Assembly: GCF_003664995.1 (NCBI RefSeq)
Contig: NZ_JFHL01000018.1
Span: 62,001-126,000, forward strand
Reading direction: 5' to 3'
DNA: 64,000 bases
From: Mesotoga sp. BH458_6_3_2_1
Lineage (GTDB): Bacteria > Thermotogota > Thermotogae > Petrotogales > Kosmotogaceae
Within the stretch, counting starts at the first letter, position 1, and every line of letters begins with the position of its first letter. Shown one piece after another: positions 38,274 through 46,089 of this stretch. The notes below the pieces were generated by a model that saw nothing but the letters and a program-made list of their open reading frames with translations, searched no databases and was not told the origin of the DNA. Both the position numbers and the translations under genes were made by a program.

Positions 38274-38726
38274 TCAAGTTTTCTTTCCAAGTTCAGATGT
38301 ACAGTTAGGACACCTCACTGCATCGATAGGAATCGATGTGTGACAGAAAGGACAGATCTTGGTCGTCGGTGCTGCCGTTGCCTCCTCCTTCTTCTGTCTC
38401 TCTCTCATCTTGTTGATGAGTTTGACAATCATAAAGATTACGAAGGCAAGAATAATGAAGTTTATGATTGCGTTGATAAAAAGACCGATATTTAAAGTTG
38501 CTGCGCCAGCTTCTTTTGCCTCTGCCAGAGTTGCGTAGCTTTCTCCGGATAGGCTGATGAAGATATTGGCAAAATCAATACCCCCAAGGAACAGGCTTAC
38601 AATGGGCATTATAATATCGTCAACCAGTGACTTCACAATTACCTGGAAAGCGCCACCGATAATGATACCAACTGCCAGATCGATTACGTTACCCCGACTG
38701 ATAAACTTCTTAAACTCCTTCAACAC
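38274..38726 (-). CDS. mscL: Large-conductance mechanosensitive channel with C-terminal zinc ribbon
   Basis: 150 residues from a GTG at 38726 with GAGGGGG eight bases upstream; a GTG at 38735 overlaps that site. Two membrane helices are clear: VIDLAVGIIIGGAFQVIVKSLVDDIIMPIVSLFLGG and NIGLFINAIINFIILAFVIFMIVKLINKM. RGNVIDLAVGIIIGGAF is the MscL signature. After the usual C-terminal helix there is a zinc ribbon, KICPFCHTSIPIDAVRCPNC, with CxxC pairs. The channel opens under membrane tension to release solutes. The ribbon is an uncommon addition to the cytoplasmic tail. Confidence 0.94.
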   Translation of the reverse strand: MLKEFKKFISRGNVIDLAVGIIIGGAFQVIVKSLVDDIIMPIVSLFLGGIDFANIFISLSGESYATLAEAKEAGAATLNIGLFINAIINFIILAFVIFMIVKLINKMRERQKKEEATAAPTTKICPFCHTSIPIDAVRCPNCTSELGKKT

Positions 38727-38905
38727 ACCGCTCACCCCCTCTACTATGACGTTATGAAAAGATTATAATCTTGTTTAATTCCAAAAACAAGTGTCCAAAA
38801 CACTCTTAATAAGCGGTTTGCTTTTGATCCACTCACTAATCGTATTACTGTAGTGAAACTCCGAATTATCTTCGATGAACCTTCGAAAATCCCCAAAATA
38901 CTAAT

Positions 38906-40754: not shown

Positions 40755-41594
40755 ATGCGAGAAATTGTCGATTTCATAAGTAGCACTGTTCTGAAGTGGG
40801 GTTATCGAGGGGCTGTGATAGGTATAAGCGGAGGAATTGACTCTGCGGTGGTAGGTAAGCTAGCCGTCGACGCCCTGGGCAAGAAAAACGTATTTGGCCT
40901 TCTCATGCCCGAGCGCGACTCTTCGAAGGATACCCTGGAGGATTCGAAGCTCGTAACTCGTTTTCTCGGAATAGACTTCAAAGTCAAGAACATAAGTTCA
41001 GTTCTCCGTTCTGTTGGCTGCTATAAACTCCAACCGCCGGCCCTTCTAATACCTCAGTCAGTTAAGGAAAAGTATGTAAGGGATAAGTGGAAACAGCTTT
41101 CTTCAGATCCATTCCTCGATGACTTGGCCGACAGAGGCAATGAAGAATTCAAAAGGGGACTGGCCTTTTATAGAGCCAAGCACAGAGTCAGGATGGTTTC
41201 GTTGTATCTGGAGGCCGAAAAAAGAGGTTACGCTGTACTTGGCACGACAAACAAGACCGAATGGCTTTGCGGACTTTATGTTAAGTGGGGAGACGATTCA
41301 AGTGACATAGAGCCGATAAAACATTTGTTCAAAACTGAGGTAATGGATCTTGCAAGAGACTTAAAAATCCCGGCGAGGATAATCGAAAAACCACCGAGTC
41401 CCGATCTGATTCCGGGAGTCAATGATGAGACTGCCTTTGGACTTCAACTTAACGAGCTAGATGAAGTACTTCGGGAAATCGAAGCCGGCAAAGCCCCAAA
41501 CCCTCACGACAGCAAGGTCATGAGGGTTATGGAAATTCTCCAGGCGGCTGAGTACAGGAAGCTCAGGAATCTTTCAATTATTCAGAAGAAGTGA
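40755..41594 (+). CDS. nadE: NH3-dependent NAD+ synthetase
   Basis: 279 residues from the ATG at 40755 with AGGTGATC upstream; a longer frame to 40668 lacks a site. The PP-loop is SGGIDSAVVGKLAVDAL (residues 25-41), followed by LLMPERDSSKDTLEDSKLV and VLGTTNKTEWLCGLYVKWGDDSSDIEPIKHLFKTEV. It converts nicotinate adenine dinucleotide to NAD with ATP. There is no glutaminase domain, so ammonia is probably used directly. The gene's end overlaps the convergent gene by 17 bases. Confidence 0.94.
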   Translation: MREIVDFISSTVLKWGYRGAVIGISGGIDSAVVGKLAVDALGKKNVFGLLMPERDSSKDTLEDSKLVTRFLGIDFKVKNISSVLRSVGCYKLQPPALLIPQSVKEKYVRDKWKQLSSDPFLDDLADRGNEEFKRGLAFYRAKHRVRMVSLYLEAEKRGYAVLGTTNKTEWLCGLYVKWGDDSSDIEPIKHLFKTEVMDLARDLKIPARIIEKPPSPDLIPGVNDETAFGLQLNELDEVLREIEAGKAPNPHDSKVMRVMEILQAAEYRKLRNLSIIQKK

Positions 41595-42657
41595 GAGTTT
41601 TGAGCCCATTACTCCATGAAATGCTTATCAGATTAACTGCTACTCTTTCAAGTTGTTGATCAGTAAATTCCGGAAAGTCAGTAAAATCTTGTTTCTTTGC
41701 TTCTCCAGGTCCAACACTAAGTCCATCGAGTTCCTTCTCGGCAACGTAGAGCTCTTTACCCATTGGATCCAATAGTCTGAAAGAGATGTGCACTGCTTTA
41801 ACTGTCCCAAGATCTGAATTGTTCTTGACTCTTAGAACAACGCCCTTCTTCTTGCTGAAAGTTCCAATCTTTTCTATACTTGACTGGATAACTACTTCGC
41901 GATGGAGGGAGTTCGTTGTTTTTCTGTCCCCCGCAAGGTAAAGGTCCGCACTCTCTGGAATACTGTCTTCCAGATCGAGATCGGACACAGGCATTTCTTC
42001 TCCAAGCGGTTCTGGGAGCGATTCATTCTTAGTTTCAAAGCTCTCTAGAGACTTGTACAGCTGATAAAGATCCCACAAGTTATCGTTGAAGACTCTGTGT
42101 TGTTTCAGTTCTCCAACGATTATCTCGGTGCTAAAGGAATCCAAATCTATCTTCGAATTTTCTTTGCGAATCTTCACGCCATCCTGGCCAAAGTGGACTC
42201 CAGAGAGAACAAACCATTCATCTGGCAACGGAAAGACAAATCTTCCAACGTGCTCTTCCTTCGAAGAGAACTCTATTGTATTAACGATTATCGGAACGAC
42301 GTAATCGGTTTCTCTTTTTGCAGGAATCTTTGATGCTTCTCCATCTGAGACCACTCTCATAGTCTTTCCAAGAGTTCTCGATTCGAAGGCCCAAAGGGAA
42401 ATTGAATCCTCATAGAACTTGTCATCCACAACTTTTACCCCTTGAAGCTTAACAGAGCTAAGATCGAGTTTGCTTTTGGTTAGAGAAAACTTGGACGATT
42501 CCATCTTCACTTCGACTACAGCCATGAGCCGGTCCTTGTATTTCGCAAAAACTGGATCGGAAGGAAAAGTGAACGTTATCCCTTCGTGCTTTGATTCTTC
42601 GATGAAGACTGATCCTGAATCGCTTATAAGAAATGCCGAGTATCCCATCATCTTCAT
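41578..42657 (-). CDS. Conserved-looking protein of unknown function
   Basis: 359 residues from the ATG at 42657, whose GGGGG ribosome binding site has an 8-base spacing (an ATG 6 bases upstream is too close to it). No signal peptide or membrane helix. The N-terminal part alternates strands (SAFLISDSGSVFIEESKHEGITFTFP, VVEVKMESSKFSLTKSKLDL), a middle acidic linker (NESLPEPLGEEMPVSDLDLEDSIPESADLY) follows, and the C-terminal part is again beta-rich with a DUF-like Ig fold (KKKGVVLRVKNNSDLGTVKAVHISFRLLDPMGKELY). Family not recognised; a two-lobed beta protein with an acidic linker is all that can be said. Confidence 0.8.
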   Translation of the reverse strand: MKMMGYSAFLISDSGSVFIEESKHEGITFTFPSDPVFAKYKDRLMAVVEVKMESSKFSLTKSKLDLSSVKLQGVKVVDDKFYEDSISLWAFESRTLGKTMRVVSDGEASKIPAKRETDYVVPIIVNTIEFSSKEEHVGRFVFPLPDEWFVLSGVHFGQDGVKIRKENSKIDLDSFSTEIIVGELKQHRVFNDNLWDLYQLYKSLESFETKNESLPEPLGEEMPVSDLDLEDSIPESADLYLAGDRKTTNSLHREVVIQSSIEKIGTFSKKKGVVLRVKNNSDLGTVKAVHISFRLLDPMGKELYVAEKELDGLSVGPGEAKKQDFTDFPEFTDQQLERVAVNLISISWSNGLKTLTSSE

Positions 42658-42679
42658 AATCATTTCCCCCTTTCTTTTT

Positions 42680-42694
42680 GTTATCTCCGATAAC
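42680..42694. promoter_or_regulatory. Palindrome GTTATC-N3-GATAAC in the promoter of the unknown gene
   Basis: Perfect 6-bp arms around TCC, between the TATAAT (42698-42703 minus) and the ribosome binding site. It would sit on the transcription start and could be a repressor operator. Confidence 0.5.
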
Positions 42695-42697
42695 AGC

Positions 42698-42703
42698 ATT
42701 ATA
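42698..42703 (-). promoter_or_regulatory. -10 box of the unknown gene at 41578-42657
   Basis: Perfect TATAAT (GGTATAATGCTG on the minus strand), about 40 bases upstream of the start codon. The -35 is not recognisable. Confidence 0.5.
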
Positions 42704-43117: not shown

Positions 43118-45568
43118 TTACGGTTGATTATCCAGTCCAAAGTAGATTCCAAATCGCGAGTCACTGTACTGAATGCCTATCTTGGGGAAAATGTCTCCGA
43201 TACCTATTGTTGAACCGACATTTATGAATAGGTAAAGAGCGGAATGATCTAGACTGGTGTTTGTTCCGCTTATCACACCACCAATTCCCAACTCTTTCAA
43301 GAAGAAAAGAGGACTCCAGCCCCAGTCTATCCTATGCAAGAGTTGAGCACCGTTCGCATACCAGTAGAAATCATCGTAGAAGCCGACACCAAGACCGACA
43401 GATGTACCTAGGGTAGGAGAGAATCCAGCATCCACGACAAGCAGTGGCGTGATCTTTCCGTCGGAAAGTCTTATCCCCGGTTCCAGCGAAATCGAGAAGA
43501 GATTTCCTCCTAGACTTAAGGGAACAGATGTGGTGATGCCTCCCGAGGTGTCAAATCCAATATAAGCGTGTGATCTGAACCTTGTAGAAGGATTGAGTGG
43601 CATCTGGAAAAGCTCAGCAGAAAGACCCGCATTAGCAATGGGAACTTCAGGGAGGCCAAGATTTATTCTCAGCATCGCATTTATTCCTTCAAACAACTGG
43701 CCGGTGTACTCAGCAGTGAAGGAAGGTTTTTCAGTGCCAAATGTAAATGAAGGCATTAGTGTCATAGAGTGATTAGAATCATGAGAGAGGTGTAAGGTCA
43801 AAAATCCCAGGGAGAAGTTTTCTCCATCGTACGATACAAGCGGAGCTCTTAAAATGGGATTCAGAAAGTGAAGGAAGGTCTTCTTCAGATAATCGCCGCT
43901 TGTATACTCCACAGAGGCTGGCTCGAAGTCATCGGGCTCTACTTCTTTAACGCTGTAAGGAGTGCTTTCAAGACCGAATACATAGATAGACATTCCCTTT
44001 TCTCTTCGGGAGTGTCCGAATCCGTACACTGTAGAATTTAGCACCACCGCCTTTTCAAGATTGGCGCCTTCGGTTAGTCTGAAAACCTCTCCTGATATTA
44101 CCTCCACAGCGAAAGCATCCATATATCCTTCTTCATAGGCGGCTGTAAAGACTACCTTTCCCTCGTGATAGTCAATACCCCTTCCCTTGAGATAGGGATC
44201 GTCCAGAATTACTCTGAATTCTCCCTCAGTGAAGGTCGCAATGGCTCCGTTAATGCCATTCCTTGATATAAGCATAACCAGACTTCCATCATCAAGAACA
44301 ACGATATCTTTGACGAGCCATGGAACTGTTATGAGTTGCATCTCATCGAAATATATGGTTGATAGTTCAGTTTTTGTGTCGTACAGTGCTTTGATCAATC
44401 TTCCGTTGTAGATATCAAAGGCAGTGATCATCCCTTTGTCTAGAAGCCTAACAGAAAGAGGGGGTCGGTGAGACCAAATTTCTCTGGACGTTGTATTCCT
44501 TTCGGTTACCGAAGTCATCAAGTAGATGTTCCCTTCGTGCCATTTTAAGCTCAGAGCGTTAAAGTCAGAAAGTCTCCTGGAAAAGCCGCCATCTACATAT
44601 TCTTCAATTCCTCTTTCAACAGAGCCATTCCATGAACTTACTTCACCGAAAATCGAATAGGAGAAGACGATGCCATTTTCAGTCTTCGTCATATCGAATA
44701 TCTGACCGTTGGCCACTGTTCTCACCTCGGTCAAAGTGGCATACTTTGTGGCTTCGATTCCGACTTCTTCTTTCCAGTCATTGTAGAGCCCGTCCAGTGC
44801 TTCGCCGAATGCGATTTTTGAGGCGTTGATGGGTCCGAAAACTGGAAGTCTTCCGGAGACTTGGCCATGAAACTCCTTGACTGATTCTATGCCGAATCTT
44901 CTAACGAGATAGTCATAGAAGCTGGCCATATAGTTATAATACAGTGCTCCTCCTCGGTAGTCTTCTCGCGATACGGACAACGCATAGTCCAGACCTGGGA
45001 AGGAGTTTGCTTTCATGTTCTGATAGATCATTTCCCTTCCCCACATTGGATTGTTCAGTCTTCCCTCTGAGAAGTAATTTGACGATTCTGCGAACAAAGT
45101 AACTCCCTCCACAAACGGTGAAAGCTGCTGAGGAGAAAACATTTCCGTTCCTAAGACCACTCTAGAGATGAAAGCGGGTATACCCGTTGTGTAAGTTAGG
45201 TGAGCAATATGAGTGAATTCGTGGATAAGAAGCTGTCTGTAAAGATTAGATACATTCATTCTGGTCGATAGTATTGTGTCGGCAGGCCACACAAAGACCT
45301 GAATCGTCTTATGGTTCTGAGCTTGAGCCAGCCCATTCGTATTTGCCCCAAAGTCAGCGAGCACGATGTTTATTCTTCCCGGATCGTTGCCGACAAGTTC
45401 GATTGCCTTTGGCCGTATCGATTCGAAGGTGTTGCCCAAATAAACGGCAACTTTCTCATACCCCTCCGGGTAATAGATATCAGCATTGGGGAATTCAAGT
45501 ACATTATTGGCGAGCATTGTGACTGCAAGAACAATCACAATTGCCAAGAGCAACATTATTTTTCTCAT
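43118..45568 (-). CDS. Secreted gluzincin-like protein with propeller-like middle and C-terminal beta-barrel
   Basis: 816 residues with a signal peptide (MRKIMLLLAIVIVLAVTMLAN). Residues 116-120 are HEFTH and Glu154 lies in SPFVEGVTLFAES: the HExxH plus downstream Glu of gluzincin metallopeptidases (peptidase-MA like). Residues about 250-520 have repeated beta blades of WD40/TolB type (EGNIYLMTSVTERNT, KDIVVLDDGSLVML, GKVVFTAAYEEGYMDAF). Residues about 560-816 alternate polar and hydrophobic residues in strands (SLGGNLFSISLEPGIRLSDGK, VDAGFSPTLGTSVGLGVGFY), as in outer-membrane barrels. A surface protease anchored in the outer toga membrane is an inference. Start after AGGAGGTTTAC. Confidence 0.75.
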   Translation of the reverse strand: MRKIMLLLAIVIVLAVTMLANNVLEFPNADIYYPEGYEKVAVYLGNTFESIRPKAIELVGNDPGRINIVLADFGANTNGLAQAQNHKTIQVFVWPADTILSTRMNVSNLYRQLLIHEFTHIAHLTYTTGIPAFISRVVLGTEMFSPQQLSPFVEGVTLFAESSNYFSEGRLNNPMWGREMIYQNMKANSFPGLDYALSVSREDYRGGALYYNYMASFYDYLVRRFGIESVKEFHGQVSGRLPVFGPINASKIAFGEALDGLYNDWKEEVGIEATKYATLTEVRTVANGQIFDMTKTENGIVFSYSIFGEVSSWNGSVERGIEEYVDGGFSRRLSDFNALSLKWHEGNIYLMTSVTERNTTSREIWSHRPPLSVRLLDKGMITAFDIYNGRLIKALYDTKTELSTIYFDEMQLITVPWLVKDIVVLDDGSLVMLISRNGINGAIATFTEGEFRVILDDPYLKGRGIDYHEGKVVFTAAYEEGYMDAFAVEVISGEVFRLTEGANLEKAVVLNSTVYGFGHSRREKGMSIYVFGLESTPYSVKEVEPDDFEPASVEYTSGDYLKKTFLHFLNPILRAPLVSYDGENFSLGFLTLHLSHDSNHSMTLMPSFTFGTEKPSFTAEYTGQLFEGINAMLRINLGLPEVPIANAGLSAELFQMPLNPSTRFRSHAYIGFDTSGGITTSVPLSLGGNLFSISLEPGIRLSDGKITPLLVVDAGFSPTLGTSVGLGVGFYDDFYWYANGAQLLHRIDWGWSPLFFLKELGIGGVISGTNTSLDHSALYLFINVGSTIGIGDIFPKIGIQYSDSRFGIYFGLDNQP

Positions 45569-45624: not shown

Positions 45625-46089
45625 CTATATACCGAACGTGTCTTTGAAAAACCGCTTTGTTTCCTTCACGTTCAAGATCTTACTGAAGGTCAGTTTAATT
45701 TTGCCTTCTGTCCAGACAATCTTAATTTCCGTACTATCTGAAAAAGCACTTCCCTGCGAAGAGTCCGTTTTCCTGGAGATCTTCACCTTTTTTAGTGACG
45801 CTTTTGGAATAGAGAGATTTCCCGGCGTCTCGTTGATTATCTCTTCCTTTGACTTTTCACCATATCTTTCCAGCAAAGTTGAGCCAGAGGACATAACGGA
45901 TGCCATCTTCTTAAGAAAACCTTCATTGCTTTCCTTAGAAGCTTCCCTCGCCTTATTAACGGCTTCATTTACAAGTGTTTTTGTTATCTGCACCAGCAAT
46001 AGGCCTTCTGAAATCGCAACAATGTCAAATATCTTATTTCCGAAGAACCCCGAAGCCCCTCCTGGAAAGATCTCCAAAATGTTGTCCAT
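45625..46089 (-). CDS. Small protein of unknown function
   Basis: 154 residues, ATG after GGAGG, no signal peptide. It begins MDNILEIFPGGASGFFGNKIFDIVAISEGLLLVQITKTLV, continues with a charged helix (NKAREASKESNEGFLKKMASVMSS) and ends with strands (SLKKVKISRKTD, STEIKIVWTEGKIKLTFSK). The strand pattern loosely recalls pleckstrin-homology-like cytoplasmic domains, but the match is too weak to name. It lies between the metallopeptidase-like gene (56 bases downstream) and a divergent aminotransferase. Confidence 0.75.
   Translation of the reverse strand: MDNILEIFPGGASGFFGNKIFDIVAISEGLLLVQITKTLVNEAVNKAREASKESNEGFLKKMASVMSSGSTLLERYGEKSKEEIINETPGNLSIPKASLKKVKISRKTDSSQGSAFSDSTEIKIVWTEGKIKLTFSKILNVKETKRFFKDTFGI

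Follow-up and report, generated by a model that had tools for sequence, protein, structure and literature searches.

A predicted propeller metalloprotease with an outer-membrane barrel in Mesotoga and related bacteria

Here we describe, from sequence and structure models, a predicted secreted protein of Mesotoga sp. BH458_6_3_2_1 in which a gluzincin-type zinc protease, a TolB-like beta-propeller and a 16-strand outer-membrane barrel follow each other in a single chain (Table 1). Its gene lies in the window, by which we mean the whole stretch of 64,000 nucleotides analysed. We infer a role in envelope maintenance: the protein would be a protease tethered to the outer membrane and facing the periplasm, where it serves the processing or quality control of envelope proteins, a reading to which we assign a probability of roughly 0.6.

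Table 1. Positions in the window of the gene and of the predicted features of its product.
Feature	Position	Strand	Basis
Whole gene, predicted propeller metalloprotease with outer-membrane barrel, 816 aa	43118..45568	-	sequence and model; dN/dS 0.055-0.11
Predicted signal peptide, residues 1 to about 20	45509..45568	-	sequence; hydrophobic N-terminus kept in homologues
Predicted gluzincin-type metalloprotease domain, residues 22-275	44744..45505	-	model, invariant columns, weak M1 profile matches, Peptidase_MA_2 in relatives
N78, invariant in 56 protease domains, role not assigned	45335..45337	-	alignments
HEFTH, residues 116-120, predicted zinc ligands and general base	45209..45223	-	alignments
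E154, predicted third zinc ligand	45107..45109	-	alignments
Y211, on the conserved Tyr of M1 aminopeptidases	44936..44938	-	alignments and profile match
Predicted TolB-like beta-propeller, residues 276-540, about 24 strands = 6 blades	43949..44743	-	model; TolB profile; PD40 in relatives
Predicted linker helix, residues 560-569	43862..43891	-	both models (full chain; C-terminus alone)
Predicted 16-strand transmembrane beta-barrel, residues 573-813	43130..43852	-	two models, fold search, strand alternation

Structure prediction, which the initial annotation had proposed as a check, returned three domains, in the order helical metalloprotease, propeller of six blades and C-terminal barrel of 16 strands. 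Sequence and model thereby agree on the single secreted chain of protease, propeller and barrel described in that annotation, whose gene coordinates were exact, with the minus strand as the coding one. The full-chain AlphaFold2 model, built with 20 homologues, reached a pLDDT of 85.5 and a pTM of 0.86, and is largely helical up to about residue 275, with the propeller, a short helix and the barrel following. The predicted signal peptide has no lipobox cysteine, and the protein is, as its sequence indicates, a barrel-bearing protein and not a lipoprotein. Comparison with four Mesotoga homologues indicates purifying selection on the gene, with dN/dS values of 0.06-0.16 in each of the protease and barrel domains and of 0.085 in the propeller where computable. 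As a query the protein gave no hits in Pfam, NCBIfam or PDB sequences, and a scan of the genome contigs for close relatives returned one Mesotoga locus and no second.

The predicted catalytic residues are strictly conserved in the alignments assembled here. The initial annotation had placed the gluzincin set H116, E117, H120 and E154 correctly; across 65 family ORFs they vary little or not at all, and the HExxH motif, whose absence from close homologues had been named there as counting against the assignment, is kept in 64 of these 65. The sole invariant columns in 56 protease domains, an alignment whose most distant members share 15% identity with the window protein, are N78, H116, E117, H120, E154 and Y211, all of which except N78 are still invariant when 20 homologues from outside Thermotogota are added. 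HExxH and the downstream glutamate, the sequence hallmarks of gluzincins (clan MA(E)), are thus both invariant, and around E154 relatives have (W/L)xEG(F/I/L)A. A HExxH is expected by chance at about 0.02 in a random 816-residue protein (a rough estimate for ordinary composition, not computed with a tool), which together with the conservation in 65 ORFs and 56 domains argues that HEFTH and E154 are no chance occurrence.

The top-ranking PDB matches of the protease-domain profile include M1 aminopeptidases, yet these matches are weak (3cia with E 6e-4, ERAP2 with about 0.02); between the two, at 0.0013, lies a retron protein that is unrelated. In the profile alignment, Y211 falls on a conserved tyrosine of M1 aminopeptidases, which we take to be catalytic there. 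M1 enzymes, which also have HExxH and the downstream glutamate in common with the window protein, differ in their other flanking domains and in the lack of a propeller and barrel. The same two motifs are shared with Peptidase_MA_2 (PF13485), which matches 12 of the 56 relatives at E<=0.01 (best 1.2e-7), whereas the window protein scores no Pfam match and the one relative with a cut-off given falls below it. A fold search with the whole-chain model as query gave matches to the peptidase domain of clostridial collagenases (TMt 0.38-0.39 for collagenase T, 0.25 for collagenase G). The zinc protease of the Mesotoga protein is apparently active, and its domain would bind zinc and cleave peptides.

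We also have to consider that the HExxH site might have a non-proteolytic job, or that the domain might be a non-catalytic binding module, as one related lineage lives without HExxH. Two genomes of a related genus (g2) carry full-length paralogues that lack the motif (L099:2446-4950 and L181:1582-4080) and are, on their sequence, apparent pseudo-proteases. In the aligned L099 copy, N78, E154 and Y211 are changed too; this joint loss suggests that N78, HExxH, E154 and Y211 act as one site. Such a loss in the degenerate copy examined and the invariance of the full zinc, base and tyrosine set over phyla both argue against a non-proteolytic function, which we consider very improbable.

The blade-like repeats reported earlier in the middle region are borne out by the model, in whose strand list six four-strand blades were counted by hand, and by the match of the family propeller profile to TolB structures (E 5e-11). 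Pfam detects PD40 in 5 of 21 relatives, the window protein by itself having no match. TolB is likewise a six-blade PD40-type propeller, but it is soluble in the periplasm and has neither a protease nor a barrel.

For the C-terminus, the possible outer-membrane barrel of the initial annotation gains support from both models and from the fold search. Modelled alone with 29 homologues, this region forms the same 16 strands (pLDDT 85.1, pTM 0.64), and each of the 50 best-ranked PDB matches listed is a membrane beta-barrel, examples being PelB, 4y25 (a second polysaccharide outer-membrane exporter), VDAC, TamA and LptD; TMq against the 16-strand porin of Rhodopseudomonas blastica is up to 0.52. We therefore reject a soluble C-terminus, and soluble beta domains, the fold that the annotation had set against its own proposal, did not appear in the model. 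The alternating hydrophobicity of the barrel strands is found family-wide, with best eight-residue windows of 1.5-4.2 (most >3) compared to 0.5-2.3 in propeller strands, a score that is somewhat biased toward the barrel since its longer strands offer more windows.

The barrel bears on the side of the membrane at which the protease would act. In the surface protease suggested initially, the barrel would display the protease and the propeller on the cell exterior or extrude them there, and polymers would be digested for food; this would suit a secreted, barrel-bearing protein of heterotrophic organisms and an own-genome paralogue that adjoins glycoside-hydrolase-like genes. However, a near-universal protein, mostly in one or two copies and conserved over phyla, looks like a housekeeping factor and not like a variable food enzyme. 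Moreover, a 16-strand barrel has its N- and C-terminus on one side of the membrane, which is normally the periplasmic one, and in PlpD, the closest design that has been studied, the enzyme domain, which lies N-terminal to an Omp85 barrel, was shown to be periplasmic (PMC11116518). For these reasons the protease probably faces the periplasm, by structural analogy, and the surface location is less supported and in our view unlikely. In the model, neither face of the barrel has long loops, so that loop length does not settle the orientation. PlpD, formerly called an autotransporter (PMC11116518), and PL-Omp85 (type Vd) resemble the window protein in joining an enzyme domain to a 16-strand outer-membrane barrel, but carry a patatin lipase and POTRA in place of the zinc protease and propeller.

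As a periplasm-facing envelope protease, the protein would be exported by Sec and its C-terminal barrel would insert into the outer membrane (toga), which would hold the zinc protease and the propeller at this membrane and most likely within the periplasm. H116, H120 and E154 would bind zinc, E117 would be the general base and Y211 would stabilise the transition state. The propeller sits between the other two domains and is probably where substrates or a partner are selected or held. Most likely, the protein would process envelope proteins that are secreted or lie in the outer membrane, or act in their quality control, in a way somewhat similar to BepA, an M48 protease that belongs to the outer-membrane assembly pathway of E. 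coli. BepA is an HExxH envelope protease acting at the outer membrane, the role proposed for the window protein, but it is a separate protein with TPR repeats and without propeller or barrel, and the likeness is functional only.

Judging from profile searches, the protein is nearly universal in Thermotogota: the full-length profile matches 95 of 103 genomes and the protease-domain profile 98 of 103, mostly with one or two copies per genome. Outside Thermotogota, 123 of 287 genomes are matched by the protease-domain profile (E<=1e-8). Twenty such homologues taken in full are ORFs of 854-1205 residues, all with HExxH. In their alignment with four Thermotogota members, Pfam detects PD40 in 16 and Omp85 in 5 of the 24 sequences; the barrel profile of the non-Thermotogota homologues matches Thermotogota BamA (hhalign probability 97.8%, E 9e-13), and an xRG(Y/F/L)...EYRxP motif is present in 10 of the 20. 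With PD40 repeats in many of them and an Omp85-type barrel motif in about half, these homologues resemble the WD40-Omp85 class.

The initial statement that no named family has this full layout consequently stands for Pfam and NCBIfam, which gave no match, but not entirely for the wider homologues, which look like the WD40-Omp85 subfamily of the Omp85/TpsB superfamily, as named in passages of Heinz and Lithgow (2014; PMC4104836). As far as those passages describe it, the class combines a TolB-like propeller (WD40/PD40) with a C-terminal outer-membrane barrel of 16 strands, as in the window protein; they name the propeller alone, whereas the window protein adds an N-terminal peptidase. The main-text passages make no mention of an N-terminal peptidase domain for WD40-Omp85, and the "metalloprotease" class in them is a different one, PF00149 (PMC4104836). 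A 2024 paper on PlpD still describes the metalloprotease and WD40 subfamilies as poorly characterised (PMC11116518). Our results suggest the presence of a protease in the WD40-Omp85 class; if so, the class would have to be tested in a different way.

Unlike WD40-Omp85 barrels, the barrel of the window protein cannot be recognised from its sequence as belonging to Omp85; the 16 strands of an Omp85 barrel are present in both models. None of 29 sequences has a Pfam match, profile comparison of the window's barrel clade with Thermotogota BamA gave no match (probability 0.8%), and the RG(Y/F) lid-loop motif ((V/I)RG(F/Y)) is present in just 1 of 65 Thermotogota ORFs, so that Omp85 membership by sequence is not supported. 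Similarity to the Omp85-type members of the family is weak, confined to the first strands (probability 75%) and borderline against reversed controls. The Thermotogota barrel may be a derived Omp85 barrel or a replacement.

These differences weigh on the proposition that the protein is primarily an assembly factor, in which propeller and barrel form a BamB-BamA-type platform and the protease clears failures. While the Omp85-type barrels of homologues in other phyla agree with such a platform, as does the BamA-BamB-like role or fusion proposed for the class in passages of Heinz and Lithgow (PMC4104836), the window clade lacks the lid motif and the BamA similarity, its structure model displays no POTRA, and a separate Omp85/BamA-type gene is present in 54 of 61 Thermotogota genomes searched. 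Early-branching phyla, e.g., Thermotogae, are said in the same passages often to have BamA alone (PMC4104836). We regard a primary assembly function as decidedly unlikely.

The envelope protease that we favour could be extended, though only tentatively, to an ancient one-chain machine for outer-membrane maintenance, near-universal in Thermotogota and spread over much of the diderm tree. Protease, TolB/BamB-like propeller and barrel would then be a self-contained counterpart of BepA plus assembly machinery, whose barrel in Thermotogota lost its Omp85 features and became a pure tether. A protease found in nearly all members of a deep-branching phylum as well as in many other bacteria, with an invariant active site and a predicted outer-membrane anchor, is for this conservation a strong candidate for a basic, unstudied step of outer-membrane upkeep. 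We found no experimental study of this layout in the literature, nor any publication on the homologue in T. maritima, whose gene directly follows TM1012 and is presumably TM1013.

In the protease tree, the Thermotogota sequences do not form one clade, and the window clade is far from the clade of the own-genome paralogue, which may reflect either an old duplication or a transfer. This paralogue (L030:5021-7531) is an 837-aa open frame with HELSH between two glycoside-hydrolase-like genes; similar surroundings are seen in L099 and L181, where a GH13-like gene adjoins the degenerate paralogue. Another genomic stretch (G076:C1:1228270-1236070; L092) holds two family genes about 2.7 kb apart together with an S8-type protease gene. 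Plasmids searched with a divergent homologue gave no match.

Neighbour genes of family members are not conserved outside Mesotoga, and therefore no partner points to a pathway; a conserved operon partner was rejected on the same grounds. The flanking genes in the window, 45625-46089 and 41578-42699 (both on the minus strand), have no significant Pfam match, and their homologues adjoin the family gene solely in Mesotoga loci. Further away, at 38274-38735 (minus strand), the window encodes an MscL with a C-terminal zinc-ribbon-like tail (CPFC...CPNC), for which the Pfam score for Zn_Ribbon_1 is under the cut-off (E 0.0019).
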